DNA of 27,852 nt from a virus (IMGVR_UViG_3300001242_000079:1-27852), one strand, 5' to 3'. Shown: positions 9,560 to 26,386, numbered from the stretch's first letter. Translations and numbers: made by a program. Notes: a model not told the origin generated them from the letters alone.

Positions 9560-9941
9560 TGTGATTACTCCTTTTCTCGTGTAGAGCCAATTTGAGGACT
9601 TTCGAGATGTTGTCGGCATAGGTTGCATTCAACGCCGACCATAATTTCTGCGGATATTTCAATGCATCCTCGACGGTCCAGATCCCCAATTGATGCAGCT
9701 CATTTGAGAATTTCTGGCCGTCAAAGGTCATTTCCATCTCATCCCACGGATACCCATAGGGGATGCCGCGCGCTAGAACAGTATCCAGTACCAACCCCTC
9801 GCCGATTTCATCGACGGGGATATATTTTCTGGTCGCCGAACCATCTACTTCGTATTGCACGAGAGCGGTCTCGCCCTTTTTGCTGACAACCGTAACGCGG
9901 CTTCGGCTGTAATCCCTTGTTGTTTTCGTGTCCTTGCTCAT
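9549..9941 (-). CDS. Conserved-type phage protein in the tail terminator position
   Basis: A 130-residue protein whose end overlaps the next gene by 11 nt and whose start overlaps the preceding stop (ATGA-type). The first part is basic and beta-rich (RSRVTVVSKKGETALVQYEVDG, with ATRKYIPVDEI). The second part is mixed, with YPWDEMEMTFDG and a helical end (KLWSALNATYADNISKVLKL). I do not recognise the family. Between a gp10-like neck protein and the tail tube, phages usually encode a tail terminator or tail completion protein, so such a role is possible but rests on position only. Confidence 0.75.
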   Translation of the reverse strand: MSKDTKTTRDYSRSRVTVVSKKGETALVQYEVDGSATRKYIPVDEIGEGLVLDTVLARGIPYGYPWDEMEMTFDGQKFSNELHQLGIWTVEDALKYPQKLWSALNATYADNISKVLKLALHEKRSNHNGR

Positions 9942-10390
9942 ATTGCGTGTCCTGATTCTCTAATTGCAGCTTGCAGGTGCTTGTCGAAATAGTCTGGCAT
10001 CAGCCCTACCCAGATATCGCGGATCGTCTCGCTTATCTTTTGCGCCTTGATGCCTTTGACCTCATGGCCCATCGAGAATCTATCTTCGCCGGTGGATTCG
10101 TCTACCCAGTGGAGCACCTTGGCGCGCACTGGCTTGATGAAATGAGCTATCGTGCCTTGATCAACGAATTTGAATATCTCATCAGTAGTGCCGACGCTGA
10201 TGTAAATCAGGTCGCTGCCGAGCCGTACGTAGCCTCTCCACACGGGTTTGTGTCTCCATGCCGATGTTGCATCTTCGAACGCGCCTTTCACATCCTTCTC
10301 CATCTCGCGCGCGGCCTTCTCGAAAGCATCCTGGAATACTCCAGGGGGCAGTAATTGGGGAATGATGGTTTTGAATCTTGCGCGCGCCAT
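9938..10390 (-). CDS. HK97 gp10-like neck / tail completion protein
   Basis: The start at 10390 (MARARFKTIIPQLLPP) follows AGAGG closely. A longer frame from 10438 would overlap the preceding gene by 34 nt and has no SD. The 150-residue protein has an N-terminal amphipathic helix (FEKAAREMEKDVKGAFEDATS), then YVRLGSDLIYISVGTTDEIFKFVDQGTIAHFI and a C-terminal helical part (RDIWVGLMPDYFDKHLQAAI). The 'FVDQGT..H.I.P' core with a preceding strand is typical of the HK97 gp10-like family. These proteins join the head connector to the tail. The position, after the connector genes and before the tail tube, fits. Confidence 0.75.
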   Translation of the reverse strand: MARARFKTIIPQLLPPGVFQDAFEKAAREMEKDVKGAFEDATSAWRHKPVWRGYVRLGSDLIYISVGTTDEIFKFVDQGTIAHFIKPVRAKVLHWVDESTGEDRFSMGHEVKGIKAQKISETIRDIWVGLMPDYFDKHLQAAIRESGHAI

Positions 10391-10870: not shown

Positions 10871-11914
10871 CTAAATAAAACTCATCCGCACGTGCCGGTT
10901 TTTGTTGGCGTAGTTCCACGCACGCCACGCACCATCCTGTACGCCGAACAAACTATTCGCGCGCTCGGCGGTGATCGTGCCTGGAATGGATCGGTCGCTC
11001 TTCCACAGCATCATGAGCGGGTCGCAGCCCGGGCATGGCTCGATCGGCATCAGTGCGTGAGCCAGGTGCAGGATGGCATCCTCGGCCACTGGGTCCATCG
11101 GCTTGCCCGCGCAGTAATTGATTCGGATTTCCGACGCGCCGTGCCAGACGCAAACATCGTTATCGCTGGGCAGCAGGGTTACGATCCCGCTTTCGTTCGA
11201 GCGGATATAACCGCAGGCGGGTTCCGTGTCTTCGCCGCATTCGGGTTCGCAGCCGTCGCCCAGCGGCCACACGAACCCGCCCACATCGGTTGAATCCGTG
11301 TAAACCCGCTTGATATCCACAGTCTGTGCATAAGGTCCACCTGGTGCCGTATCGGCATAAGTCAGGCCTGTGTCTGGGTTATCCTGAGATGCTTCCAGCA
11401 CTAGCCGCGCGCGCGGGAAGGTAGCTGTCACCGTGCCGCCGGACAAGATCAGGCTGTCGGGATAAACCTCTATATCCGTGCCAGGTAGATAGAAATGGAT
11501 CTCGCCATCGTCCGTTACGGTCGTAACGGTGGCCGGGATGGTCGCGGGATCGGTCGCGTGGCTAAGCGCCACACCCAGGGCGATATCGGTCACCGCGCGC
11601 ACGCCCAGGGACTGGACATAACTCCATCGCGTAAAGAACCGTCGGGTATTGCGATGCATCTCGGCGGTGTACCATTTCTGGCCCAGCGGATAACCCAGCA
11701 CCTGCTCAATCATCGCCTGTGCCTCACCCAGGTAACGCGCGATCATGTTGCGTTCGAGCTTCTCCCAGATCTTGCGGCAGTCGCGATCGCGATTGTTTGG
11801 ATGATTGATCCCGAAGAATGCGTTTTCGTTGTATCTCACAATTTGTGCATAGCGGGCCAGCGTCAGGCTGCTCGTATCGAGCGTAGCGTTGAAGACGGAC
11901 GGAATGACAGTCAT
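10871..11914 (-). CDS. Head-tail connector / neck structural protein
   Basis: A 347-residue protein whose ATG overlaps the stop of the preceding membrane protein (ATGA). It opens with a helical part (KIWEKLERNMIARYLGEAQAMIEQVLGYPL), as in head-tail adaptor proteins that open with an alpha-helical bundle. A long beta-rich part follows (FYLPGTDIEVYPDSLILSGG, then FPRARLVLE), with Cys-rich loops (CEPECGEDTEPACGY; EPCPGCDP). It ends in a helical region (AEDAILHLAHALMPIEP). The gene lies after the capsid and before the gp10-like gene, which is the connector slot. The Cys clusters are unusual for this role and might bind metal or form disulfides. The family itself is not recognised. Confidence 0.65.
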   Translation of the reverse strand: MTVIPSVFNATLDTSSLTLARYAQIVRYNENAFFGINHPNNRDRDCRKIWEKLERNMIARYLGEAQAMIEQVLGYPLGQKWYTAEMHRNTRRFFTRWSYVQSLGVRAVTDIALGVALSHATDPATIPATVTTVTDDGEIHFYLPGTDIEVYPDSLILSGGTVTATFPRARLVLEASQDNPDTGLTYADTAPGGPYAQTVDIKRVYTDSTDVGGFVWPLGDGCEPECGEDTEPACGYIRSNESGIVTLLPSDNDVCVWHGASEIRINYCAGKPMDPVAEDAILHLAHALMPIEPCPGCDPLMMLWKSDRSIPGTITAERANSLFGVQDGAWRAWNYANKNRHVRMSFI

Positions 11915-12219
11915 CGTTGGCGTCCCAAACTATTTGCAAAAATCGACTGCAATCCCGCAATTGCCAGTGAGAAAAGAATGTAATTGGCGAAAGAGGATGC
12001 AAAGAACAGGCCAAACATAAAGGCCAGCCAGAAACCGGTGCAGTGAACGCATAGCAGCAAGTTGGCGATATTCCGTCGAAGAGAATTGTCGAAAGGCACT
12101 CGGTTGAAAGACCCGCGCAAATTCATAAACACATCGAATGGACCGCTGTCTATGACGAATAATTCGGCGAGTCGAAAAACCGCCAGCGCACAGATGATGA
12201 GGCGGACAAGAATATCCAT
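11911..12219 (-). CDS. DUF1360-like small membrane protein
   Basis: A 102-residue protein beginning three bases after the preceding TAA-containing stop context, with AAGG upstream. It has an N-terminal hydrophobic helix (ILVRLIICALAVFRLAELFV), a polar loop, then LLLCVHCTGFWLAFMFGLFF and a third hydrophobic helix near the end. The C-x-H-C-T-G-F-W motif at the start of a membrane helix is typical of DUF1360 proteins (related to the Bacillus spore protein YjcA). Proteins of this type are common as small genes in phage genomes. The function is unknown; an inner-membrane location is likely. Confidence 0.8.
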   Translation of the reverse strand: MDILVRLIICALAVFRLAELFVIDSGPFDVFMNLRGSFNRVPFDNSLRRNIANLLLCVHCTGFWLAFMFGLFFASSFANYILFSLAIAGLQSIFANSLGRQR

Positions 12220-13383
12220 TTACTCGACCTTTTTGAACAACGGATGTCCATGATCGGTGAGTTCGAGAAAGCCAGGGCTTTGGCGGCTCTGTGTGATGGC
12301 ATCTCGCGCATCGATGTAGAGCTGCTTTTGTGTGCCGCCTGCAACATAGCGGACGCCGGTCACGGGTCCGTACCATGGCATTTTGCCGGCGTTCCCGCCG
12401 ATATACTCGATCAGGATCATTCCGTCCGCACCTGGCATGAGGGTATGCGCGGCAGGGGGAGTGTAGGGTGTGGCAGCTAATGCCTTATTTCCGCAGCACA
12501 TGGGGGGATAAACTCCTTTGTAGATGTTGGCATGGTAGGACTGGATCAGTTTCTTGGTGTTTTCCCATTCCGGGGTGTGTTTGTGCGAGCCTACGATGCC
12601 GTTGTGTTGCCTGTACCAGTACAGCACGTCCTGAATGGCTGTGCCGCAGATCCCTTTTTCGCCGGCGGTCAACCAATAGTCCCAATCCTCCAAAAACGGG
12701 AGCGACTCTCTGTAGCCGCCGACGGTTTCCCAATCGGCTTTCCTTTGCAGCGCGCCGTTCGGGAAATAGACCATCTTCATAATCTCGCCGAAGTCGTAGG
12801 GTTTCGCGGCATAAAGATGCTGGTCGCCCGAACCGCGCTTACTGTTGAATAGCATCGTTGCGCCATACAGGAAACCCTTTTCAGGGCGTTTGTTATATGC
12901 CGTTTCAATTGCCTCTCTCGCAAGCCAGTCATTCGCATCGAGCGGGAAAAAGAATTCGGTGTCGCTGGCTCGAATGCCGGCATTCCTCGCGCGGGAAAGT
13001 CCTTTGTCAGAATGAATGATTGAAATAAGGCCTTCGGTATTTTCGAGGAACTGCGAACCATTCTCGATGACGACACATTTGCAAGAGACGGTTTGCTCGA
13101 TCACGCTTTCGATGGCTTCTTCAAGCCATGCAATATCTTGTTCATCCTTGAGATAGGCAGGGACGATGATGGTGACGGGAACGACGGGTCTCAAATCCAG
13201 GGAGGTATTTGCTTCGCGTATTCGGCCAAGAAGTCTCTCGGCAGCACCGTTCCCGACTTCAAATGGATGATGCTCTTGTTGCTGCTCACCGCTCTGTTCA
13301 ACCAGGGGAACGTCTCCGACAGGCCGTTCGGGCTTCGAAGCAGGCACGTCCACTTTTGATGACTTTGATTTTCGAGCGACCAT
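12220..13383 (-). CDS. Family 2 glycosyltransferase with an extra C-terminal domain
   Basis: The start at 13383 (MVARKSKSSK) follows AAGGAG by 7 nt. Of 387 residues, the first 66 are low-complexity, charged and Pro-rich and are encoded inside the end of the preceding gene. The GT-A domain runs from about residue 67 (PVVPVTIIVPAYL) to 270. It has the metal-binding D-A-N-D at 149-152 in place of the usual DxD, and the acidic LEDWDYW motif near 231-237 that probably holds the catalytic base. After a Cys pair and a Pro-rich linker, residues 317-387 form a separate small domain (MILIEYIGG, WYGPVTGVRYVAGG, YIDARDA). I associate this domain with small phage neck-region proteins. The fusion may tether the enzyme to the virion or assembly complex. 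Confidence 0.82.
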   Translation of the reverse strand: MVARKSKSSKVDVPASKPERPVGDVPLVEQSGEQQQEHHPFEVGNGAAERLLGRIREANTSLDLRPVVPVTIIVPAYLKDEQDIAWLEEAIESVIEQTVSCKCVVIENGSQFLENTEGLISIIHSDKGLSRARNAGIRASDTEFFFPLDANDWLAREAIETAYNKRPEKGFLYGATMLFNSKRGSGDQHLYAAKPYDFGEIMKMVYFPNGALQRKADWETVGGYRESLPFLEDWDYWLTAGEKGICGTAIQDVLYWYRQHNGIVGSHKHTPEWENTKKLIQSYHANIYKGVYPPMCCGNKALAATPYTPPAAHTLMPGADGMILIEYIGGNAGKMPWYGPVTGVRYVAGGTQKQLYIDARDAITQSRQSPGFLELTDHGHPLFKKVE

Positions 13384-14978
13384 AGGGTCTCCTTCGTGCA
13401 TTCATCGTAGGTATCTAAAACGATTGTGATTTCCGCGTCTCGTTCCGAGATTGGGGCGTTGTAATCCAGTTGACCTCCAAGCCACCAATTCGGGAACCCG
13501 CTCAGGCTGATGTTATTGCCGTGTATCCTGTAATCCATCAGCGGCTTGCTGGAGGCCCTGCGCGCGCTGCCGCCGAGTTGGAAAATTTTCAGCCAGAGGT
13601 GGGCATCTTCGGCAGGCGTAAACCGTTTGTCGTAACCGCCAGCCCGCATCCACCAGTTTTTTCGGAACATGCAGCAGGATGGGATTTGGTTCCTGCCCAT
13701 CGCGTGCAGGGCGGGCCTTGCCTCGTCCCTGAACATCTGCTGTTTGCGCGGCTGTCCGTTTTTATCAACCAGGTTGATCGGCGCGTACGCGATCGCGTCG
13801 GCGTTCGAGCGGAAGGCTGCCAGGTGTTTCTCGGCAAAGTCGGGATACATCCTGTCATCTGCGTCCAGGCAGATGATGTATTCACCATTCGCCTGGCGGA
13901 TGGCTTTATTCCGTGCCTCTGCCACTCCGAGATTGATCTCGTTTTCGATAACCGTGACGCCGCCGTATTGCCTTGCGACCGCAACGCTGTCGTCCGTGCT
14001 TTTGTCGTCGATGACGATGACCTCGCAGGGGATGGTTTGATTGAGCGCACTCTGGATCGCTTCGCCGACGAAGCTGCAGTAGTTGTGGCACGGGATAACG
14101 ATGGATACTGATTTGCTCTCTGGTGTGTTGTTGACCCGTTCATAAATTCCGAGCAGCTCGTTGATCACTGGCTGCCAGTCGAAGATTTGGGCATAATCGC
14201 GCGCCGCGGCACTGTACTTCTTCCAATTGCCCAGCACCTTCGAGACCGCTTCTTTGAGCGCAAACTGATCGCCAAAGGGGACCAGCTCGCAGCCATCGCC
14301 GTTTATCAACCACTCGGCGTTGAAGCCGATGTCATAGCCGACCACGGGAACTCCCATGATCATTGCCTCCATCGTCGCCATGCTGTTATTCTCTTTTGTC
14401 GTTCCGAGATAGACAGCGCAGCTTTTCAACGTGGAGATGAAACCATCGCGGCTCAATTTGCCTGTGGATTTGACGCCCTTGATCGGGGCAACAGACAGTA
14501 GGTTGAAATTTGTTTGCCCCTTCAGATACAGCACATCGTCAGGCTTCGCATTGGCGTCCAGGTTGACCTTCGGAAACAACACCGGGCCGCCTTGAGATCC
14601 GCCGCGCTTGTAATCTCTTATCCATATCCCATTTCGGGTAACGATCGGATTGATGTGCAATTTATGCCGCAGGATGTTGGCGCTGAACTCACTGATGCAG
14701 ATCGTAACTTTGGCCTTGAGCGCATTCGATAAAACAATGTCATTCGCGCGAGAGAAGGATTTATCGAAATATCCTTCGCCAATTGGGTACAGACCATGAC
14801 AGTGAAAGACGTCTACGTTCTCGCTTTGTGCGAGAGCGTGGACGATGTTCAGGCCGCCGCCGTTGTTGATCTCGCAGCCTGCTGCCAGGAATCCGAGCGC
14901 ATGATCAGATACAACAGAGTTGACGCCGCCCGGGATATTGGCGCACGTGATCGGATTGGGATCGATGTTAAGGTTCAT
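13191..14978 (-). CDS. Two-domain glycosyltransferase (GT-B plus GT-A)
   Basis: The ATG at 14978 (MNLNIDPNPITCANIPGGVN) is favoured as the natural opening of a GT-B domain; a frame from 15017 has no SD. Residues 1-280 form a GT-B enzyme: GGVN near the start, NLLSVAPIKGVKSTGK, and the nucleotide-sugar-binding end (TKENNSMATMEAMIMGVPVVGYD). From about residue 290 a GT-A domain of family 2 begins (VSIVIPCHNYCSFVGEAI) with the metal site LDADD and a late HLWLKI segment. The last 70 residues begin another GT2-like strand (ITIVLDTYDECTKETLWSL). The gene follows the major capsid gene and overlaps the next glycosyltransferase by 193 nt. Tandem activities would suit building a two-sugar or longer glycan. 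Confidence 0.85.
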   Translation of the reverse strand: MNLNIDPNPITCANIPGGVNSVVSDHALGFLAAGCEINNGGGLNIVHALAQSENVDVFHCHGLYPIGEGYFDKSFSRANDIVLSNALKAKVTICISEFSANILRHKLHINPIVTRNGIWIRDYKRGGSQGGPVLFPKVNLDANAKPDDVLYLKGQTNFNLLSVAPIKGVKSTGKLSRDGFISTLKSCAVYLGTTKENNSMATMEAMIMGVPVVGYDIGFNAEWLINGDGCELVPFGDQFALKEAVSKVLGNWKKYSAAARDYAQIFDWQPVINELLGIYERVNNTPESKSVSIVIPCHNYCSFVGEAIQSALNQTIPCEVIVIDDKSTDDSVAVARQYGGVTVIENEINLGVAEARNKAIRQANGEYIICLDADDRMYPDFAEKHLAAFRSNADAIAYAPINLVDKNGQPRKQQMFRDEARPALHAMGRNQIPSCCMFRKNWWMRAGGYDKRFTPAEDAHLWLKIFQLGGSARRASSKPLMDYRIHGNNISLSGFPNWWLGGQLDYNAPISERDAEITIVLDTYDECTKETLWSLENQSHQKWTCLLRSPNGLSETFPWLNRAVSSNKSIIHLKSGTVLPRDFLAEYAKQIPPWI

Positions 14979-14983
14979 AGGGG

Positions 14984-15007
14984 GAGGCTGCCATTTCTGA
15001 CAGCCTC
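14984..15007 (-). promoter_or_regulatory. GAAA-capped hairpin between capsid and glycosyltransferase
   Basis: On the minus-strand RNA, GAGGCTGUCA and UGGCAGCCUC form a 10-bp stem (one G-U pair) closed by a GAAA tetraloop. The G-U pair would be a mismatch in the other strand's RNA, so the structure belongs to the late transcript. It lies 13 nt after the capsid stop and 5 nt before the ATG at 14978. AGGA abuts its 5' side. No T-run follows, so it is not a simple terminator. Confidence 0.7.
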
Positions 15008-15020
15008 TCCTCATCAATGA

Positions 15021-16313
15021 TTAGTAAGGAAAGTAGGTATTCCAGGGGTCGGCGCTCAACACACCACCGGGCACGTCACAGACAACGTCCTGGATGCGAG
15101 CCTGCGCCCAGGGCGCCCACATCAACAAACGAGGCTGCATTTCCACAACCTGCACTTCGCAGGTGTGGCGGTCTTCGGCCCAGTTCAGGAAACGCCCGCC
15201 ATCGGTCGCGCTGAACTTATCAGCGCGTTCGCTTGCGGCAATGGTCAGGTCATTGAACTGGCCCTGGATGATCTTCACGTTGCCGACTGCGCCGGTCAAC
15301 AGATAGCTGTCGAACGTCTGGCCGGAGTTGATGAGGCCCCAGTCGTACGGCATGATCGGGATTTCAAAACCGTCGAGTGTGATCTTCCCTGCGCCAAATG
15401 CACCGCCGTTCAGCTGCTGACGGAAGTTGCGCGCCTCGAACGATCCAATCCCAACCAGGTCGCCGTCGCAGACAGACCAACACGTGAAGGAGTCCAACAC
15501 GCAGCCAGCGAAATCCTCGGGCAGAAGCAGGATCATGTCGCCGACGCGCATCCGTTGCGCCGCGAGAGCCGGTGCCATACGAATGCGGTGACGAATGCGG
15601 CGGAAGGCTGCTTGAAGCAGGTCGATGTACCCGTAGGTATTGGCGACTGCCGCACCGTTCCAGGTAATGCCGTCCCCGCCGTCCATGTCGTTGTCGTTGA
15701 AGTCGATGACGATGGAATCCATCGCGGGGCACAGTGAGCCGTCCGCATCGGTGTAGCCGGTCTTGACCAGCAATTCCAGTCCGCTGAACTGCCCCGATGT
15801 GGCTTTGTTGCCTTCCACGATCATGGGCTTCAGGTCCTGCAAAAGGACTTCCGTCGCCATACGGAAATCATATTCACGCTGGTTGGTGATCTGCGATCCA
15901 TCTAGTCTATACCGCGGCTGAACGTCGCAATAGCGCAGTCCAGACTTGGTGATATCGCGCGTCGGGCTTTCGCGGCGCAGGCGGGCGAAGTCGGTCAATG
16001 TGAAATCACAGTAATCGACTTCGAAACTGTTGGGGTCTGCACAGGGGTCGGCCAGCCAGCCGGCCGATTTCGCATCCTGGCCGGTATTCTCGGCGCGGAC
16101 GAAATTGATGAATGCCTTTTTGATCACACAGACATCCGTCTTTTCCCAGCCGATCCAGTCCAGGAACGGAGCGGTTCCCTCGAACGAGAGGGACATCAAA
16201 GCCGCGTCGGTGCAGATGTCAAACAATGCCTCGCAGCCGAAGATTGGGGTGGGGGTGGTATCGAGCACCAATTCATCGTTTGCGGTTTCAGAAGTTGCGC
16301 GTTGTTTCTTCAT
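15021..16313 (-). CDS. Major capsid protein (HK97-like)
   Basis: A 430-residue protein with a strong SD (AAGGAG), directly after the prohead protease/scaffold gene. This order is diagnostic for HK97-type heads. Its features fit a coat protein: an alpha/beta pattern, a helix followed by IKKAFINFVRAENTG, the QREYDFRMATEVLLQDLK segment that resembles the spine helix, then FRRIRHRIRMAPALAAQRMRVGDMILL, and a C-terminal beta-rich part ending WNTYFPY. Several Cys residues are present (CTDAAL, CDFTL, CVLDSFTCWSVCDGD), more than is usual. No long N-terminal delta domain is visible, in keeping with a separate scaffold. Three glycosyltransferase genes nearby make this protein a candidate glycosylation target. 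Confidence 0.85.
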   Translation of the reverse strand: MKKQRATSETANDELVLDTTPTPIFGCEALFDICTDAALMSLSFEGTAPFLDWIGWEKTDVCVIKKAFINFVRAENTGQDAKSAGWLADPCADPNSFEVDYCDFTLTDFARLRRESPTRDITKSGLRYCDVQPRYRLDGSQITNQREYDFRMATEVLLQDLKPMIVEGNKATSGQFSGLELLVKTGYTDADGSLCPAMDSIVIDFNDNDMDGGDGITWNGAAVANTYGYIDLLQAAFRRIRHRIRMAPALAAQRMRVGDMILLLPEDFAGCVLDSFTCWSVCDGDLVGIGSFEARNFRQQLNGGAFGAGKITLDGFEIPIMPYDWGLINSGQTFDSYLLTGAVGNVKIIQGQFNDLTIAASERADKFSATDGGRFLNWAEDRHTCEVQVVEMQPRLLMWAPWAQARIQDVVCDVPGGVLSADPWNTYFPY

Positions 16314-16341
16314 GGTAAATTCTCCTTATTGGATAACCCAA

Positions 16342-16869
16342 TTAACTCGTCGGGCTCATTTGGGACAGAGTCTCTTCGGCGATCTCTGCCAGGTTGACGT
16401 CCCTGTTTTTGGCATGGGGCAGGATGGCAGCGCGTGGGCGAACGATGCGCTGCCGCGTGATCTTCGAGGGCAGGTCTTCCAGGATCTCGGCGATCTGCGC
16501 CTCACGCGACTTGGTCAGTTCAGCCACCTGGCCCGCCAGCGCATCCACCTTCTCGATCAGCGCGGTAAGTTGTTTGTTTTCCCGCTCCACAGCTTGCGGC
16601 TCAGGTGTGGCCACGGCAGGGGCAGGGGCAGGCGTGCTCTGGGCGAGAATCTTTTCGACAATCGCCGTGACCTTTTCCTCGAGCTCTGCATCGGTTGCTT
16701 CAGCCGTGACGGGTGCCGGGGGTTCGGTGGCAGGGGCAGGATTGGCTTCGCGGCTGATCATGCCTTCTGCGCTGCGATTCACGCTGTCGATTTTTTCGAC
16801 GAATTCGTTGAACAGCGCGTCGTCATCGCCGGTGAGTTTTCTGAGTGCGGCTTTCATTTTGTCATTCAT
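16342..16869 (-). CDS. Possible nested scaffold protein from an internal start
   Basis: Within the protease/scaffold gene, in the same frame, the ATG at 16867-16869 (MNDKMKAALRK) is preceded by GAAGAGG about 8 nt upstream. Starting here would yield a separate 175-residue scaffold that lacks the protease, as lambda makes Nu3 from inside gene C. The start matches the domain border. This is inferred from the SD and layout only. Confidence 0.35.
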   Translation of the reverse strand: MNDKMKAALRKLTGDDDALFNEFVEKIDSVNRSAEGMISREANPAPATEPPAPVTAEATDAELEEKVTAIVEKILAQSTPAPAPAVATPEPQAVERENKQLTALIEKVDALAGQVAELTKSREAQIAEILEDLPSKITRQRIVRPRAAILPHAKNRDVNLAEIAEETLSQMSPTS

Positions 16870-17676
16870 GCGGTTTACCTCTTCAACAGTTGAAATGGAT
16901 GTCAGGATTGACGCGGCGGCATCCTCAGGGAGCAGTGAGATATAGAAATTGATGCCATCATTAAAAACAGGGATTTTGATCCCATCTTTAGACCTGATAA
17001 TTTCAGGTTCTTTCGTGGGCAGATAGGAGATACTCAACCCCCAGTAATCGCTGTCTTCTTCCAGGCTTTTGGCGGCGGCTCGAGCGATGGGCGTGTCGTA
17101 AAACAAGCCGGACGCGCAGTAGTTCACGCCATCACGTCCAACCCAGTCAGCCTTGCCTAGACACACCTGCTCGCGAGAATGGAAGAAATCCAATTCGGGA
17201 TAATTGCCCGTCCGCTCGGCATATTCGACGAAGCCATCGAATAGCTTGCGGCTGTCGATTTCACCGTCGCGATTGAGAACGGCGGTACAGGCGGGCATGG
17301 CGAACCAGCGCAGCTTCCCATCCGCGGAGCGCTTCACCTGCAGCTGCCGACCTGTCACAGGAGCGAATTCCATAACCACTTCCTGGTATTCGCCGATGCT
17401 GATCTCGTCGCTCGCGCTCACAGTCACGACGGCCTTGTAGAGTTTCCCGTCTTTGGCGATCAGGGCATAGGTGGAATCGTTGGAAATATAGACATCAATC
17501 ACATTCCCCGAAGACATCATGCCGCCTGAAACATTCCCGGCGGCGACCACGGCATCGACATCCAATTTATCCTGGATGAAATGCCAGATATCGCCTATAG
17601 TCACAGCACGTTCCTTCACGTGGCTCTTGACCACATCGGTGACGGCCTGTAAAAGTTGAACGATTGGATTTTTCAT
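16342..17676 (-). CDS. Prohead protease fused to a scaffold
   Basis: A 444-residue protein with AAGGAC before its ATG. The first 110 residues are not recognised. The protease part (about residues 115-250) has the S78 look: LDFFHSREQ with His166, a GRDGVNYCASGLFYDTPIARAAA segment split over several strands and a catalytic Ser215 in WGLSISYLP. From about residue 270 the protein becomes scaffold-like: a charged helix (MNDKMKAALRKLTGDDD), an Ala/Pro-rich linker with PAPAPAVATP, and a coiled-coil helix (LIEKVDALAGQVAELTKSREAQ). The protease matures the head by digesting the scaffold and itself. It is the first gene behind the strong promoter at 17774-17802 and its attenuator-like leader. Confidence 0.82.
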   Translation of the reverse strand: MKNPIVQLLQAVTDVVKSHVKERAVTIGDIWHFIQDKLDVDAVVAAGNVSGGMMSSGNVIDVYISNDSTYALIAKDGKLYKAVVTVSASDEISIGEYQEVVMEFAPVTGRQLQVKRSADGKLRWFAMPACTAVLNRDGEIDSRKLFDGFVEYAERTGNYPELDFFHSREQVCLGKADWVGRDGVNYCASGLFYDTPIARAAAKSLEEDSDYWGLSISYLPTKEPEIIRSKDGIKIPVFNDGINFYISLLPEDAAASILTSISTVEEVNRMNDKMKAALRKLTGDDDALFNEFVEKIDSVNRSAEGMISREANPAPATEPPAPVTAEATDAELEEKVTAIVEKILAQSTPAPAPAVATPEPQAVERENKQLTALIEKVDALAGQVAELTKSREAQIAEILEDLPSKITRQRIVRPRAAILPHAKNRDVNLAEIAEETLSQMSPTS

Positions 17677-17694
17677 GGTTTGTCCTTAACACGC

Positions 17695-17740
17695 AAAAAG
17701 TCGGCGCGAACTCGGAAGGTTTCCGAGAGCGCACCGACTT
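17695..17740 (-). terminator. Terminator-like hairpin in the protease leader (attenuator)
   Basis: On the minus strand, AAGTCGG pairs with CCGACTT (outer arms at 17734-17740 and 17698-17704), with inner TGCG/CGCG and CTCGGAA/TTCCGAG pairs and an ACC loop, followed by a run of five Ts (17695-17699). It lies after a strong promoter and before the gene, so transcripts must pass it. A competing small hairpin, GACTT-TTG-AAGTC (17736-17748), uses the same 5' arm, which could serve as an antiterminator. Confidence 0.75.
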
Positions 17741-17773
17741 CAAAAGTCTACGGCTCTTTATTTAGCTGTCAAA

Positions 17774-17802
17774 ATACTAGCACATTTTGTACTGAGTGTC
17801 AA
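17774..17802 (-). promoter_or_regulatory. Strong promoter for the protease-capsid genes
   Basis: On the minus strand, TTGACA (17797-17802) is followed after exactly 17 nt by TAGTAT (17774-17779), and the -10 box has the extended TGC just before it. The predicted start near 17767 gives a leader of about 90 nt to the ATG at 17676. It lies in the longest gap of the upstream operon, just after the stop of the 99-codon gene. Confidence 0.82.
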
Positions 17803-17828
17803 TTACAATTTCATCTTCTTCGGCTCAG

Positions 17829-18128
17829 TCACCTACAAAAAGTTTCTTTACGGATAAGTCGGATCGTGTTCGAATCAACCCAATCGAATTTGTAGACGCC
17901 AATTTCGATTGGCGCACTCTTTATGGCATTCACGAATATCTTGGCGCTTGTAAGAGATGAAACCTGAGAAACATCGTATCCATTCACGCCAGTGATCATT
18001 GCTCTTACAACATGCTTATTGCACATAGAAGTATATAAGCCGCCGCAACCCTCGAACCACACATTGAAAGTCGCCGGATTCCGGCAGACTTCTCCCGGTG
18101 AAGGGTGACACAAACGAATCGGCTTCAT
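17829..18128 (-). CDS. 99-residue Cys-rich protein of unknown function
   Basis: The ATG at 18128 overlaps the stop of the methyltransferase gene (ATGA) and follows GAGGG. A longer frame from 18674 exists, but its first part is a shadow of the methyltransferase. The N-terminal half has spaced Cys and His residues (IRLCHPSPGEVCRNPATF, then EGCGGLYTSMCNKHVV) that could bind zinc. The C-terminal half is a beta-alpha mix ending VYKFDWVDSNTIRLI. It is the last gene before the internal promoter. The function is unknown. Confidence 0.75.
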   Translation of the reverse strand: MKPIRLCHPSPGEVCRNPATFNVWFEGCGGLYTSMCNKHVVRAMITGVNGYDVSQVSSLTSAKIFVNAIKSAPIEIGVYKFDWVDSNTIRLIRKETFCR

Positions 18129-18763
18129 ATTACCCTCATCACCGCGCACCCATTCCACCAGATCTCGCCCATATCCTCGTGGTCGCCCATGGACCCCATA
18201 ACGAACTGAAAACGGATTTTGTCGATATGGTTTGCAACGAACTGGTTGATCGAGTGGATGACCTCCGGGTATGAATAATCGTCCACCAGGATGATCGAGC
18301 CGGATCGCAGGTACGGCCAGGCGGCTTCCATGCCGGCCAATTGCGTCTCGTAGTCGTGCGCACCGTCGTAGTAATAGACCTGCACCTTGAAATCGTTGGG
18401 GACGTTCGCAAAGAAATCCTGATAACTCATGTTCCTCAAATCGACTCGCTCCGCTACACCGAATTGATTCAAGTTGCCCTGTGTGCGCTCGAGGCTGTTG
18501 GTAGTGCTGAATTCGGCAAACGAATCCACGCCAATGGCCCGCGCCTGGTTTCCCAGCAGAGCCGAAATGAGCGAGCCGCCCTGATACGTTCCGACCTCCA
18601 GATACAGTTCCCCTTCGTCCATACAGGACACGATGGCATTGAGCACGGCATACACGCGCGCGCGTGACATGCAATGGATGTTTGAAATGACATCGGCAAA
18701 CCGTCCATCGTGTTTGCCCGCCAGGACTTCCTCGAGTTGCGTTCTAAGTTGATGGTAATTCAT
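18125..18763 (-). CDS. Class I SAM-dependent methyltransferase
   Basis: The start at 18763 (MNYHQLRTQLEEVLAG) follows AGAGG; the longer frame from 18808 lacks an SD. The 212-residue protein has the SAM-binding motif I ELYLEVGTYQGGS near residues 52-64, an acidic residue ending the next strand (AIGVDSFAEF), and VQVYYYDGAHDYE then SGSIILVDDYSY. These match the Methyltransf_24 type, whose members often methylate sugars or small acceptors. It lies between two glycosyltransferase-rich parts, so a likely substrate is a glycan or glycosylated virion protein. This is inferred from the neighbourhood. DNA methylation is unlikely, since no N6/C5 motif is visible. Confidence 0.85.
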   Translation of the reverse strand: MNYHQLRTQLEEVLAGKHDGRFADVISNIHCMSRARVYAVLNAIVSCMDEGELYLEVGTYQGGSLISALLGNQARAIGVDSFAEFSTTNSLERTQGNLNQFGVAERVDLRNMSYQDFFANVPNDFKVQVYYYDGAHDYETQLAGMEAAWPYLRSGSIILVDDYSYPEVIHSINQFVANHIDKIRFQFVMGSMGDHEDMGEIWWNGCAVMRVI

Positions 18764-18771
18764 GGTTCCTC

Positions 18772-18927
18772 TTATGGTCTCCAGAAAAAGAATATCACAA
18801 AACCGCACACAATTATTATTGCTCCAACAATCTCCAATATTAGCCTACGGCAGAAACTATCAAGCTCACGCATCAGTTGTGCGTGCCGCGCAGCTTCCGA
18901 AACATATTCGGATTCATCGTCCGTCAT
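18772..18927 (-). CDS. 51-residue single-pass membrane protein
   Basis: A short gene with AGGAGAGG 9 nt before its ATG at 18927, overlapping the end of the upstream glycosyltransferase by 14 nt. The product has an acidic N-terminal part (MTDDESEYVSEAARHAQL) and a single hydrophobic helix (EIVGAIIIVCGFVIFFFW), followed at once by the stop. Its role is unknown. With a sister 61-residue two-helix protein beside it and a DUF1360-like protein nearby, it belongs to a set of small membrane proteins among virion genes. Confidence 0.7.
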   Translation of the reverse strand: MTDDESEYVSEAARHAQLMRELDSFCRRLILEIVGAIIIVCGFVIFFFWRP

Positions 18928-19618
18928 CTTGATAATCCTCTCCTGACTTCAGCCATAACGTATGTGGCTTGATCTCGGGATGCTCCTGCATGGAAAATTG
19001 ATATTGTTTCTGTTTTCGCAGATGCACGTCCTCATCCCGGCTGCTTCTGTGCATCTGGTGCAGATGGTAGAAATGATGCGACGGGTCCAACGACTGCCAG
19101 TAATAGTTGGTCGGATATCCAGCGACAAACGTATCAGGACTCTCGAATGGATAGGTCCCCCTCCATTTGCTTTCGACCGAAAACACAGCCTGACGCGAGA
19201 CGCCCGTCAGTCCATGCTCTGTCCCCAGCATCCAACACTCGCCATTCGGCAGTTCTGTGCATTCAATCCCATAGGTAAATCCGCTCATCGCGTTCTCAGG
19301 CATCGGGTGATCGTGGATGAACTGCAAATATTTTGTTGGATAAAGTTCGTCTGCATCCACAAGCATGGCGTGAGTTGCGCCAAACAGCTCCCTGGCCTTT
19401 GCCTGCATCCAGCCGCGGCACTGACCAACCTCCTCGGGGGAGAGGTTGTCATACGTCATCAGCGTGACACCTGGCACTTTAGCGATCTGCTCGCGCGTGC
19501 TGTCTGTGCTGCCCGTGTCGGCGACGATGGCATTGCCGAATACGCGGATAAGTGGAGTGAGGACGCGTTCGATCCAGATCTCCTCGTTCTTGCAAAGTAC
19601 GATGGGAATCACGATCAT
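18914..19618 (-). CDS. Family 2 glycosyltransferase
   Basis: The ATG at 19618 (MIVIPIVLCKNEEIW) overlaps the preceding stop in ATGA form; the longer frame from 19693 would run far into the previous gene. The 234-residue protein is a compact GT-A enzyme with an opening strand and CKNEE, then IVADTGSTDSTRE and the metal site VDADELYP near residue 94. It includes a hydrophobic segment with FPFES-like aromatic residues and HHFYHLHQMHRS. Family 2 enzymes transfer a sugar from a nucleotide-sugar donor. Its partner is likely the methyltransferase and the glycosyltransferases behind the capsid gene. Acceptor and donor cannot be told from sequence. Confidence 0.82.
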   Translation of the reverse strand: MIVIPIVLCKNEEIWIERVLTPLIRVFGNAIVADTGSTDSTREQIAKVPGVTLMTYDNLSPEEVGQCRGWMQAKARELFGATHAMLVDADELYPTKYLQFIHDHPMPENAMSGFTYGIECTELPNGECWMLGTEHGLTGVSRQAVFSVESKWRGTYPFESPDTFVAGYPTNYYWQSLDPSHHFYHLHQMHRSSRDEDVHLRKQKQYQFSMQEHPEIKPHTLWLKSGEDYQDDGR

Positions 19619-19800
19619 TGCGGCTTCTTTCTCCCATGTGCGACCGCCGACGCCATCAACGCCACGACAAAGAATATTACAAAGAAGGCCCACGTCAGCG
19701 CATCGGATGGGGCCAGTCTAAGGACGATCAGCCAGCCCAGAACGAACACACTGATCCAGCCAACGACCGCAAGTAATTGAGACAAATTTTCAATTTTCAT
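19615..19800 (-). CDS. 61-residue two-helix membrane protein
   Basis: Both ends overlap neighbours by ATGA junctions, a sign of coupled translation. The protein has two hydrophobic helices (LLAVVGWISVFVLGWLIVL and LTWAFFVIFFVVALMASAV) joined by a short polar turn, and a basic C-terminus (HGRKKPQ). A holin-like shape is possible, but the position among head genes and the lack of an endolysin nearby argue against a confident call. Confidence 0.65.
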   Translation of the reverse strand: MKIENLSQLLAVVGWISVFVLGWLIVLRLAPSDALTWAFFVIFFVVALMASAVAHGRKKPQ

Positions 19801-20135
19801 TTCTTTCTGGCTCTCTTCCTGCTTTTGTAATTATTGAGCAGCTCCATCGCTGATGGCATGGTCGGCGGCATCATGGATGAAATGACCTGGACGGGTTGCT
19901 TCGTCGGTTCGGGAATGGCGATCTGGCCGCCAACAGAATGGATCACGGTTCTCGCCATCTGTTCGGGCGTCAATAACGGCTTCAGGTACGCACGCAGCGC
20001 CGCTTCCGATTTAAACACGCGCAGATGGCCTTTTCCGTCACTTAGATAGTTCCGCTTCTTCCCGTTCTGCTGGTAGGCTACCCAGAATTCCAGATGGTTC
20101 ATTGGATTTTGCGGCTGGTTCGTTTGCTGATCCAT
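19797..20135 (-). CDS. 112-residue basic protein of unknown function
   Basis: The ATG at 20135 has GGAGAGG seven bases upstream. The gene starts 98 nt inside the end of the preceding gene, in another frame. The product opens with a Gln/Asn/Pro-rich segment (MDQQTNQPQNPMNHLEF), a beta-rich part (KGHLRVFKSEAALRAYLKPLL), a Pro-rich linker and a very basic tail (YKSRKRARKK) that could contact DNA or RNA. I do not recognise the family. It may be a minor head component. Confidence 0.65.
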   Translation of the reverse strand: MDQQTNQPQNPMNHLEFWVAYQQNGKKRNYLSDGKGHLRVFKSEAALRAYLKPLLTPEQMARTVIHSVGGQIAIPEPTKQPVQVISSMMPPTMPSAMELLNNYKSRKRARKK

Positions 20136-20340
20136 TTTTCATCCTCTCCACAATGACTGTTAGCGGCGCTTCCACGAAACGAGACCCGCGGCATTTGCTC
20201 CTCATGCGGTCGTGGTCGTAGAATTGCAGGTAAAGTTTCCCATCCCGCTCGACCAGTCGAAACATGGGAATGCCGTCCAGTTTCGCCAGGCCATCGTCGG
20301 CTATTTTTATCAACGCACCGTTTGGGTCTACGACTGCCAT
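20038..20340 (-). CDS. 100-residue protein of unknown function after the portal gene
   Basis: The ATG overlaps the portal gene's TAA (TAATG), so it is translated by coupling. The product has a beta-rich N-terminal part (AVVDPNGALIKIADDG, with LVERDGKLYLQFYDHD) and a charged, loose tail. The last 98 nt are shared with the next gene. The family is not recognised. Confidence 0.65.
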   Translation of the reverse strand: MAVVDPNGALIKIADDGLAKLDGIPMFRLVERDGKLYLQFYDHDRMRSKCRGSRFVEAPLTVIVERMKNGSANEPAAKSNEPSGILGSLPAEREEAELSK

Positions 20341-22424
20341 TACCTGTATTCCTCGCCTGTCTTGAGATTCACCCAGTAGTGTTCACAATGATATCCGTGG
20401 CATGAATATTCTGTCGTGCCAGGATAGGGCTTCAAATCGTTTTCGAGAATATATTTTATGGTATGGCGTTTGCCCTTCATGGCCTGGCATTCCGGGCAAG
20501 ACTCCTGTCCGTCGTCTCCGACAAACTCGCAAGTGGCGTTCTTCGCGCCCATCATTTTCGCCTGGCTAAATACCGCGTCCAGCGTCGCGGCGTAGCCGTC
20601 CGCGCGCGCAAACGCCTCTGCGATTGGGTCGATCCCGTCCCACTCCTGCTTCAGGCGGGAGAACAGATCCACAATGAAACCTCGCTCCTCAGCGACCCGG
20701 CCACCCAGCCACGACTGCGTATCGTCATCGAGTGGTAGTTCGCCGCCCGATTCCTGATACCCGTCATAAACAGCATCGGTAAACGACTCAGACATGGCAA
20801 CCAGCATCTTGTTCCTGAACGCGGTGACAGGACGGTCGCTTGTCAGGTATCCTTCGATACTGTCGTAGACTTCCGCCCAATAATTATTTCGGATCGCTTC
20901 GTAATCGGCCATTGATCTCTTTTTTTTTACGGGATGTGCCACGCGGATCTGAAACTTACGCGCGCCCGCACATCGGATCACTCGATATTTGTTGTCGCGG
21001 AATGAATACCTGACGATGTCCTCATCGGGGAATCTATCCATTGCCATTCGCACACGCTGGCGCTCCACGGCCTCGCCTGCGTCGTCCGTATCGGCAACCT
21101 TGATATCCTCTTCCTGGGTTGTCCAGTCGTCATGGATCAGGTTCGCTTCGACCAGCAACTGCCGCGCTTCATCCTGGGTAATCAGGATCTCGCCGTCCGC
21201 GTTGACACTCTTGTACATCTGATCCACCAGGTTTAGGCTGGCTTGCCTGAGCGTTGTCTCGGAAATATCCCCGTCCACGTCACGCTGCTCGAATTCGAAG
21301 TCGAGCGTCTCTGGCAGTTCCTCCTGGATCTTCTCCTGAAAGCTCAGTGCAAAATCCAGGCCGCCTTTGCTCGATGCCTTCCTGTGCTGCGATTCGCTTT
21401 CCGTCGCCGTCCCCAGCGCGCCGCTGGATACCGGCCAGAACTCGCGTGGATCGTAACCAAATGCCAGCGCATACCCAAAGATGATCATGTCTGTGAATGC
21501 GCGGTGATCAAAGTCTTCTGGCAGATTGGAAAGTGAAGTTAACTTAACTTCTATAGGTGCAGTACCAGCCCCTGCCAATACCTGTACGCCTGAGTAATAC
21601 TCGCGTTCCAGACTCTTTAACTCGGCGGTGCTTTCCTCGAGGCTTTTCAGCCATTGATCCTGTGTAATGTTGTTGACCGTTAGGATGCCCTTCGGGGCTT
21701 TCGACGCCAGCTTTTCGCGGTCGTGCTCGAACACGCTCACCAGCAGCTTTGCCAGTTCGATGCAGCGACTCACTGCACAGAAACCGAGGCCGTTCATTTC
21801 CTCCGCCGGATTCGGAAACGATGCCACGCGGAAATAATCATTTGACGTCCACTTTCCCTTATCTTTCCCTGCATTCCCGTATTGCAGTGGAGCATCCATA
21901 TTCCCCGTCAACCTGCATTTTTTCGGGTCCACCGTGTACATGGCGGCCAGCACGCCATTTTTTTGGAGCCGGCCGATCTCGACCACACCGCCCAGGTCCG
22001 CCTGATAATAATTCTGCGCAGTCACTGATGCACCAGGCCGCCAGCCATAGATGTCAGGGGCGACACTGAAGTTGTGCAAAATGTTCGTGAACTTTGCGAC
22101 CTGGTTCCTGCCGCCGACCATGGTCCATCCGCGGCTTTTGTCTATGGACACAACAGATTGCAGGACGCCCAACAAATATGGCTCTTTCGTGACAGCCTTT
22201 GCGAGCCATTCATCGCGCTTGCGGCTGTCAGCCATGTATTTAGGCTCATTAAAGATAAGCTCTTTCACCCATCCATAAACCGCGAAGAAGAACTGCGCCG
22301 TGTTTTTGGTATTGATGTCGAAGCGCGGCTGCTTGCTCTGCGCGGCTGTCTGCCTCGCGCGCTCGATCTCTTCCGCCGCATGGTCTAGCGCCCTGATTTG
22401 TTTTTGTGTGTGTTTTCTCGCCAT
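20340..22424 (-). CDS. Portal protein fused to a MuF-like Cys/His-rich domain
   Basis: The start at 22424 (MARKHTQKQIRALDHAAEE) is chosen because AGAGG lies 7 nt upstream; the longer frame from 22643 overlaps the preceding small gene. The protein has 694 residues. Residues 50-400 look like a phage portal: a helical wing, LGVLQSVVSIDKSRGW, QADLGGVVEIGRL, and the clip/stem part FDHRAFTDMIIFGYALAFGYD with SESQHRKASS. From about residue 520 a helical domain follows, ending in a compact zinc-like cluster (ESCPECQAMKG, then YSCHGYHCEHYWV). This resembles the MuF minor head domain, which is often a separate gene. The portal forms the dodecameric DNA gate; fused portals of this kind may carry a co-packaged minor head part. 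Confidence 0.82.
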   Translation of the reverse strand: MARKHTQKQIRALDHAAEEIERARQTAAQSKQPRFDINTKNTAQFFFAVYGWVKELIFNEPKYMADSRKRDEWLAKAVTKEPYLLGVLQSVVSIDKSRGWTMVGGRNQVAKFTNILHNFSVAPDIYGWRPGASVTAQNYYQADLGGVVEIGRLQKNGVLAAMYTVDPKKCRLTGNMDAPLQYGNAGKDKGKWTSNDYFRVASFPNPAEEMNGLGFCAVSRCIELAKLLVSVFEHDREKLASKAPKGILTVNNITQDQWLKSLEESTAELKSLEREYYSGVQVLAGAGTAPIEVKLTSLSNLPEDFDHRAFTDMIIFGYALAFGYDPREFWPVSSGALGTATESESQHRKASSKGGLDFALSFQEKIQEELPETLDFEFEQRDVDGDISETTLRQASLNLVDQMYKSVNADGEILITQDEARQLLVEANLIHDDWTTQEEDIKVADTDDAGEAVERQRVRMAMDRFPDEDIVRYSFRDNKYRVIRCAGARKFQIRVAHPVKKKRSMADYEAIRNNYWAEVYDSIEGYLTSDRPVTAFRNKMLVAMSESFTDAVYDGYQESGGELPLDDDTQSWLGGRVAEERGFIVDLFSRLKQEWDGIDPIAEAFARADGYAATLDAVFSQAKMMGAKNATCEFVGDDGQESCPECQAMKGKRHTIKYILENDLKPYPGTTEYSCHGYHCEHYWVNLKTGEEYR

Positions 22425-22432
22425 AACAACCT

Positions 22433-22696
22433 CTACTTTATCTCCAACATGCACGGCTTCAGCCGGTTGCGCAGTACGATATATTTCCAATTCTTTGTTG
22501 TGTCTATCCACATGGTGCCCATTGCAAAGTAACCAAGTTTTGCAGTGATCTCGACATCCTGGTATGGCATAAGCCTGTGAAAGAAATCTCCGGTCACGTC
22601 GTAGACACACAAAAGGTTTTGCCACTTTCCTCGTCCGCGACACGGCCTTGGTTGTCTATTAGGTCTGACATGACTAAGTGTTCTTTTTGCTTTCAC
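22433..22696 (-). CDS. 87-residue protein of unknown function
   Basis: The best start is GTG at 22696, with GGAG about 11 nt upstream. The N-terminal third is basic (VRPNRQPRPCRGRGKW) and may be a poor match to the true start. The rest reads as a compact fold (LLCVYDVTGDFFHRLMPYQDVEI, GYFAMGTMWIDT, WKYIVLRNRLKPCML). The stop lies 8 nt before the portal ATG. No family is recognised; by size and place it could be a head accessory protein. Confidence 0.6.
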   Translation of the reverse strand: MKAKRTLSHVRPNRQPRPCRGRGKWQNLLCVYDVTGDFFHRLMPYQDVEITAKLGYFAMGTMWIDTTKNWKYIVLRNRLKPCMLEIK

Positions 22697-25021: not shown

Positions 25022-26386
25022 TTACGCTACTGTGCGTACCCAACCACCCGATAGATGCAGCAATTCGTTATACATTCCGCTGGCTGCATCCATATCGTCG
25101 TCATGCGTGCCAGGCTGCCCATCTTGTGCATGCATACGATTCAGCCATCTTTCATTCCACGCCCCGCGCAATAATTTCACATTGCCTGCCAACGCCTGAG
25201 CCGCCAATGGTTTCGCTCTCGTGATTTTGTCACCTTGTGGAGGTGTGCCGCGTACGTCGTATCCAGCCAGCATGGTCACAATATGATGGGCATCCCGCAC
25301 ACCACTCGCTCCACCCTCCTGCTCGAATCGAATGGCGACGCCTTTTCCATCCTGACTGGCTGTATTTTTCATTGTCTCATCGGTACGAGCTGGATCTATT
25401 TGTTCATTAGTCGCATCCAGGATGTAAACAACTTCACTAACGATCTTGCCTTTGCAGGACGCAGTGGAATCGGCGGTTTTCTTCGACGTTGCAGCCAGGT
25501 CCCAATTGCGAAGCTCACGCCCGCCCGCTGGCACCGCGTCCACGATCTCAAACCAGGCCTTGTTGAATACTTTCCCCGCAGCTGGCTGGATTTTCCAATT
25601 CCCGCCGCGCGTGCTGTCCCCTAGGAGTCTTTGACGCTCAACATAATCAAGCGCCTGAAGGTTGGCAAGATACCCGGGGTCTTTTTGCATTCCAATCTGA
25701 TTATCGTAAATCGTAGACAAAATAAATGTCACGCTTTTGGGCATACTGCTGGGATACTCGGTCTGCAACTGATTTGGGTCGTCACTCCAATAGGTTTGAT
25801 CGTTTTCGCGTACCATCCAACGGATAACGCCGCTTCTCTCGGGAATAGTCCAGCCGTCATCATCTATCCACCATGCGAGGAATTCGGCCAGCCAACCCGG
25901 CTCGGGATTGGCGCTTGCGCGAATGTACGGCCTTATCCCACAAGTCGAACGGTTGCGGGAAAACATATAAAAGAATTGCGATGCTGTAAAGGTTTCCAAT
26001 TGATCGAACTCTATCAGCGCGATCTGTGCGGATTTCCAGGAATATTTATCGCTCTCATATTGCATGGCAGCGAAGGTGATCTTTGCCCCGCTCTTGAATT
26101 TGTAACTATGCTCTTGGGCATTGGGTTTGCCATCCAAAAGCGGATATAAATTACCAGCCTCGTCCCACAAGCCGCCCTCGCGCGTGATCTCTGGGATTGT
26201 GCGCCGAAAGATGACCGCACCGAAACCGTTGTTATCAATGTGACGTAATGGCTCAATTTCGAGCGCATAGGTTTTCCCGCCAAATGCTGCACCGCCGAAT
26301 ACAACCACGTCGGCAGCACTGGATAGGAATTGTTCCTGCCGAGGCTGAGGACGAATCTCGATGATTGCAGGCGCTTCAGCTATCAT
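25022..26386 (-). CDS. Terminase large subunit
   Basis: A 454-residue packaging motor. The ATPase part has a Walker A motif GAAFGGKT at residues 32-39. The Walker B region is ALIEFDQLETF around residue 128; relatives usually read FDEL, so the usual catalytic Glu is replaced by Gln129 here. A coupling motif (RASANPEPGW) follows. The C-terminal nuclease part shows Asp296 in NWDLAAT and a late acidic DDDMDAASG near residue 430. The order and spacing match the Terminase_6 type that packages DNA into HK97-like heads. It overlaps the preceding helix-turn-helix gene by 11 nt. The Gln could weaken ATP hydrolysis, or Glu126 or Glu131 may serve instead. Confidence 0.9.
   Translation of the reverse strand: MIAEAPAIIEIRPQPRQEQFLSSAADVVVFGGAAFGGKTYALEIEPLRHIDNNGFGAVIFRRTIPEITREGGLWDEAGNLYPLLDGKPNAQEHSYKFKSGAKITFAAMQYESDKYSWKSAQIALIEFDQLETFTASQFFYMFSRNRSTCGIRPYIRASANPEPGWLAEFLAWWIDDDGWTIPERSGVIRWMVRENDQTYWSDDPNQLQTEYPSSMPKSVTFILSTIYDNQIGMQKDPGYLANLQALDYVERQRLLGDSTRGGNWKIQPAAGKVFNKAWFEIVDAVPAGGRELRNWDLAATSKKTADSTASCKGKIVSEVVYILDATNEQIDPARTDETMKNTASQDGKGVAIRFEQEGGASGVRDAHHIVTMLAGYDVRGTPPQGDKITRAKPLAAQALAGNVKLLRGAWNERWLNRMHAQDGQPGTHDDDMDAASGMYNELLHLSGGWVRTVA

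Follow-up and report, generated by a model that had tools for sequence, protein, structure and literature searches.

Why should a bacteriophage keep glycosyltransferases beside the genes that build its head? The question is raised by IMGVR_UViG_3300001242_000079:1-27852 (the window), a 27,852-base fragment of an uncultured siphovirus. Its structural genes (terminase, portal region, protease, capsid, adaptor, tail protein, tape measure and Dit) all lie on the minus strand, and genes for glycosyltransferases (GTs) and a methyltransferase flank the protease and capsid genes on both sides, as an earlier note on this DNA had described. Phage virion glycosylation is, to our knowledge, known mainly from mycobacteriophages, and we know of no explanation of how the enzymes find their virion targets. 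The window and its relatives point to an answer encoded in sequence across an uncultured clade, in which the enzyme would be tagged with a small head-locus protein by means of a nested gene. This protein, a separate conserved module of about 93 residues with its own internal start, was missed in the earlier note. We call it the CCG module: a small C-terminal domain with an M-x-CCG motif and a beta-rich fold, which makes up the last 93 or so residues of a GT2 gene in the window. The GT that carries it is the one closest to the next conserved gene.

Glycosyltransferases of the head locus

Pfam matches in three minus-strand genes bear out the one GT-B and three GT-A domains counted previously. 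The gene at 13191..15017 (likely start ATG 14978) encodes a GT4 (GT-B) and a GT2 (GT-A) domain (Glycos_transf_1, 4.5e-8; Glycos_transf_2, 8e-35) and, as a correction to the earlier account, ends in a third, GT2-like stretch of about 80 residues that lacks a DXD motif. The gene at 12220..13194 encodes the fusion of a GT2 (GT-A) domain to the CCG module (Glycos_transf_2, PF00535, 7e-12; 324 amino acids from TTG 13194). The third GT, of GT2 type, is encoded at 18914..19693 (Glyco_tranf_2_4, 2.5e-7; likely start ATG 19618), in the region between portal and protease, together with a TylF-like class I S-adenosylmethionine methyltransferase (18125..18808, minus strand; Methyltransf_24, 1.1e-13), which had also been predicted.

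The mechanical open reading frame (ORF) of the GT2–CCG gene extends to 13401, so that its first 70 or so residues overlap the 13191-15017 gene (by 211 bases). Since the GC content by codon position favours the upstream frame within this overlap, a start at TTG 13194, which overlaps the upstream TGA stop (TTGA), is preferred; the downstream protein probably begins there or arises by frameshifting. No canonical −1 slippery heptamer was found by eye in the 13191-13401 overlap. The window splits into two ORFs a GT4-GT2-GT2-CCG order, the domains of the 13191..15017 protein matching in order those of single ORFs of 863-970 amino acids in five relatives (L026, L029, L031, L038 and L039). In another relative, L002, a copy of this protein (60% identical) adjoins the capsid gene. 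The 13191-15017 protein gave no pattern match when used as the sole query against viral contigs.

The GTs of the window are phage-encoded and carry catalytic motifs, and activity is predicted on that basis. The GT4 domain has the E-x7-E motif (ENNSMATME), the metal-binding motifs LDADD, LDAND and VDADE are found in the window GTs and the last GT2 domain contains (E/D)DW. A model of this last domain (predicted local distance difference test score, pLDDT, 85.8) has the GT-A fold and superposes on the chondroitin polymerase K4CP of E. coli with VIA Z 23.4. It resembles other GT2 polymerases and wall GTs (WrtF, TarS/TarP and RmlT; VIA Z 18.7-23.4 with K4CP included) but differs from all of them in sequence, at about 15-20% identity, and in being followed by the CCG module.

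Searches with capsid profiles led to 34 viral contigs and four contigs from metagenome-assembled genomes. A GT2 domain is present in 31 of 35 related virus records (E<=0.001), nearly always one or two genes downstream of the capsid gene, so the association of GT and capsid goes beyond chance. In several records of 60-89 kb the GT2 matches are confined to the post-capsid GT–CCG gene. The recurrent order is protease, capsid, [GT]-CCG, a DUF1360 protein and head–tail adaptor, with other genes inserted in some relatives. The post-capsid protein takes the form GT2-GT2-CCG in the majority, GT2-CCG or the single long ORF described above in others, and CCG alone in L006 and in L021, which has two copies; neither of these has a GT. 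Contigs that end within the region (L033, L064, L002 and L019), the interrupted gene of L036, and also L028, for which no post-capsid gene is shown, were not counted as fusions. Judged by gene content, conservation of the GTs within the head locus extends over a diverse clade of viruses.

An internal start at the CCG module

In every fusion a methionine directly precedes the (x)CCG motif and, in the module alignment, coincides with the start point of the stand-alone CCG genes. An in-frame ATG lies exactly at the module start in 28/28 non-redundant fusions and in all six loci of a hold-out set, which had been reached through the GT and not the capsid. Upstream of this ATG are AGGAG/GGAGG-like sites, usually spaced by 6-8 nt and occurring in differing codon phases.

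We scored a Shine–Dalgarno (SD) site as a match of at least 5 nt to the anti-SD complement at a spacing of 4-11 nt, and compared the counts with a null in which the same residues were recoded synonymously using each locus's own codon usage. Such a site precedes the internal ATG in 21 of the 28 fusions, against a mean of 6.6 under recoding, and the null never exceeded 14 in 5000 trials. These proteins have such a site at 4.9% of their other internal ATGs and at 5.8% of all in-frame codon positions, and the rate at the starts of neighbouring genes is 48%. Five of the six hold-out loci have perfect matches of 6-8 nt, a count that the null reached in 0/20000 trials. This evidence is comparative, and the loci are related but diverged (median identity 30% for CCG and 41% for the last GT2). 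It indicates that the internal in-frame start, with its ribosome-binding site, is under selection.

The internal ATG and its SD site might instead be relics of an old gene fusion, the fused protein being the sole product; such a site would be expected where a GT gene had become joined to a CCG gene already present. This we regard as very improbable, since the SD sites exceed the synonymous null in both sets despite the divergence of the module, and since they occur with differing residues and codon phases. The residues that precede the ATG are themselves unrelated (SKEAVK, DGGDS, DRRNE and SGRFP, for example). The ATG at the module start, the SD sites that have been kept and the stand-alone genes therefore suggest that the CCG gene is nested, with free CCG and a GT-tagged form both as predicted products. 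In the window, the nested ORF (12220..12501, minus strand, from ATG 12501) would encode a product of 93 amino acids beginning MCCGNKAL.

In L053, L059, L065 and L034 the motif takes the form C-x2-C-G (MGCASCGR, MACAGCGR and MAGCNGCG), which suggests that its paired cysteines bind a metal or form a disulphide.

Inheritance of the module and exchange of the enzymes

On the capsid tree the window groups with L002, L007 and L009 (supports 98-100). Its CCG module is closest to those of L007 (49%) and L009, and its adaptor to that of L007 (48%). The GT2 domains of the window have other neighbours, namely the five relatives with the single long ORF (last GT2 29-32%, penultimate 37-42%), which form a distant clade on the capsid tree. 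Because the nearest relatives of GT and CCG differ, the enzyme parts were exchanged at the module boundary while CCG stayed with the capsid; in the window, GT heads have thus been swapped onto a capsid-linked adaptor module. On the whole, CCG and the last GT2 have been inherited with the head genes, since their distances correlate with those of the capsid (Mantel r 0.62 and 0.58, respectively; 0.79 for the portal and 0.38 for the adaptor).

These results bear on a different role for the GTs, the alteration of host surface polysaccharide late in infection or lysogeny (receptor masking or O-antigen-like conversion), with CCG an unrelated small late protein fused by chance. The nearest PHROGs of the GT domains are 'GtrB-like O-antigen conversion' and other moron families, as in the Gtr clusters (GtrA/B/C), the next gene (11911..12219, minus strand) encodes a small membrane protein (DUF1360, phrog_781) that follows the CCG module nearly always, and a tyrosine integrase on the L037 contig suggests that some relatives are temperate. 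We nevertheless consider such a role unlikely. All 34 non-redundant fusions keep the GTs within the head locus and reading in frame into CCG, and the module co-varies with the capsid. In contrast to the Gtr clusters, the location is a head operon, and a Pfam scan of the window genes from 11911 to 22643 revealed no GtrA-like match.

Glycan-modifying genes in the relatives

The earlier remark that few phages show so complete a set of glycosylation genes was an understatement; the relatives commonly have the set and some add to it. A Pfam tally of the ORFs in two intervals, portal to protease and capsid to adaptor, yielded sulfotransferases, further GTs, sugar epimerases and dehydrogenases and several kinds of methyltransferase. 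The window counterpart in the portal–protease region is the TylF-like methyltransferase with its accompanying GT2-type gene. Sulfotransfer_3 occurs in 9/32 records, by coordinates inside the head locus in all nine (among the sulfotransferases are L006 17300-18100, L020 6656-7495, L035 6863-7897, L012 1621-2277 and L022 7006-7635). Sulfotransferases are unusual for phages and would predict sulfated virion glycans. Epimerases were found in four records, three within the head locus and the fourth a few kb beyond the stretch retrieved, and FkbM methyltransferases in 4/26 records, at least two of them in the head locus.

Might the GT–CCG protein itself be a virion component, its GT domains serving mainly as a sugar-binding head decoration (for adhesion) held by CCG and not as enzymes? 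That the GTs are fused to a module whose gene adjoins the capsid gene would suit this idea, as would the variant DXD motifs (LSADD, LGADD and LDAND) of some copies. Comparison of the motifs by alignment columns across the relatives, however, showed the second part of DXD and (E/D)DW to be nearly invariant, and the presence in this region, in relatives, of genes for methyltransferases, sulfotransferases and sugar epimerases suggests that a glycan is built. We find a purely sugar-binding role improbable.

DNA-modifying GTs are usually located with early or replication genes, a point against the further idea that the enzymes here add sugars to modified phage DNA as it is packaged. In the window we saw no genes for base hypermodification, and the co-occurring sulfotransferases and FkbM methyltransferases suit surface glycans better. 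The location beside packaging and head genes would fit DNA glycosylation, and phages with GTs that modify DNA are known (cited in PMC12619734), but we give this the least credence of the alternatives, hardly any.

Capsid protein and a second nested gene

The assignment of the major capsid gene (15021..16313, minus strand) made in the earlier note is confirmed by structure modelling. The protein matches no Pfam or PHROGs family and has homologues at 38 other loci; a model based on 33 homologues (pLDDT 80.1) has the HK97 fold, with VIA Z 14.8 to HK97 (1ohg) and 18.5 to the capsid protein of cyanophage A-1(L). In one relative, L004, the capsid ORF has stops before residue ~80 in the aligned frame (around 10001-10118), from an assembly error or a split gene.

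Upstream lies the gene for a capsid maturation protease with a C-terminal scaffold-like region (16342..17676, minus strand), an assignment supported by its position before the capsid gene and by a His and a Ser that are near-invariant in 38/39 homologues. An internal Met ahead of the scaffold-like region is kept in 35 of the 39, 33 of these 35 having an SD match of at least 5 nt. In the window this nested scaffold-like ORF (16342..16869, minus strand; 175 amino acids) begins at an internal ATG, 16869, behind GAGGT. The layout, with the enzyme part first and an internal start after it, is shared with the GT–CCG gene, and it resembles that of Nu3 in phage lambda, although the phages here belong to a different group.

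The head locus is bounded on one side by the portal gene (20340..22643, minus strand), which encodes a protein with a C-terminal extension and no family match, assigned from position and conservation, its homologues occupying the same place in relatives.

A model for docking of the glycosyltransferases

We propose that the head locus encodes a particle-docked glycosylation system in which CCG docks the GTs and the virion is glycosylated, and we think this reasonably probable. The region after the capsid gene would make GTs ending in CCG and, from the internal start, free CCG, the two co-assembling on the nascent head. The pair would parallel the free scaffold and protease–scaffold that the nested gene upstream of the capsid gene would supply. 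Enzymes positioned in this way could build a short glycan on one or more virion proteins, perhaps the capsid protein or CCG itself, and the methyltransferase, or in relatives the sulfotransferases, may cap it. Any benefit would presumably be shielding or adhesion. We favour docking because the conserved position, the fusion, the stand-alone module, the selected internal start, the protease/scaffold layout and the catalytic motifs combine in its support. CCG itself most likely associates with the capsid or procapsid, by analogy.

The analogy is with the C/Nu3 gene of phage lambda, whose enzyme product ends in a structural protein that is also made by itself from an internal in-frame start. As there, an enzyme here carries a conserved C-terminal part with an internal start, and this part is also found as a stand-alone gene, in L006 and L021. 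The enzyme here, in contrast, is a glycosyltransferase, and the protease/scaffold pair of the same genomes is nested as well.

Capsid and tail tube subunits of mycobacteriophages (Che8 and relatives) have been observed to bear glycans (Freeman et al., 2023, as cited in PMC12619734 and PMC11256854). In both cases phage GTs are presumed to act on virion proteins. In Maravista, a Che8 relative, the GTs are encoded close to the 3' genome end (PMC11256854), whereas those described here adjoin the capsid gene and carry a CCG module that has its own internal start. The capsid protein also sets the group apart: among 50,697 records of phage isolates it had no detectable relative. Searches of phage isolates with CCG and with the fusion likewise gave no CCG relative, and matches were limited to the GT2 domain.

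Several observations weigh against docking. The CCG start of the window is weaker than most, its ATG standing behind AAAGGAG at a spacing of 11 nt and not the usual 6-8 nt. The module has no Pfam match, weak PHROG matches only and no recognized family or function; a structure search was run on the whole GT–CCG model, the GT part filled the match lists and no CCG fold was listed. We infer its binding to the head from gene order and from the comparison with lambda. A Ser/Thr-rich CCG linker was considered as an obvious glycan acceptor and rejected, the enrichment being mild (17% versus 11-13%), and for that reason no acceptor stands out. This capsid type does not depend on glycosylation, since two relatives are without GTs, and the GT2 enzymes could act elsewhere in the cell.

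Glycosylation of the virion, as proposed in the earlier note, remains the best explanation and is strengthened by the conserved head-locus GTs fused to a module that co-varies with the capsid; decoration of the tail, its other suggestion, found no specific support. More tentatively, and with somewhat less confidence than we place in docking itself, we picture a modular capsid-modification machine: one gene would yield a head adaptor and adaptor-tagged GTs, interchangeable enzymes would reach the growing capsid much as scaffold brings the protease to it, and lineages would swap enzyme heads while keeping the capsid-matched adaptor, thereby diversifying their virion glycans. Docking predicts an interaction between CCG and capsid, two products from one gene, and heads that are glycosylated and, in some relatives, sulfated. 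Similar systems elsewhere might be found by looking for enzyme domains ahead of internal starts in structural genes.

Hosts and neighbouring genes

The four contigs from metagenome-assembled genomes that carry capsid homologues all belong to Chloroflexota (Ardenticatenia, Anaerolineae twice and Caldilineae), and the hosts of this virus group are probably Chloroflexota bacteria. The assignment is based on genome bins and, for L036, on a CRISPR (clustered regularly interspaced short palindromic repeats) array junction read as an assembly chimera. In this Ardenticatenia contig (7281-12953) a phage GT2 ORF runs into two copies of a type I-E-like CRISPR repeat, GTCCACCCCCACGCGTGTGGGGAATAC, followed by cas1 and cas7-like genes. 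Assembly probably joined two sequences here, at a host spacer that matches the phage GT gene; such a match would tie the phages to hosts among the Chloroflexota.

Rfam and tRNA scans of the window gave no match. The gene for the terminase large subunit (25022..26386, minus strand; phrog_979, 8.6e-128) is separated from the portal gene by one for a protein with an immunoglobulin-like domain and a right-handed beta-helix (23149-24573, minus strand), an odd location for a fibre-like protein. A putative major tail protein (8111-9628, minus strand) carries Asp-box/YCF48-like beta-propeller repeats (PSII_BNR, 2.9e-11) and is a possible sugar-binding tail decoration; its homologues, of about 480-500 amino acids, occupy the same place in relatives. 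On the opposite, plus strand, a TnpB gene (6101-7225; OrfB_IS605 / Cas12f-like TNB domain) separates the tape measure gene from the gene upstream of it.

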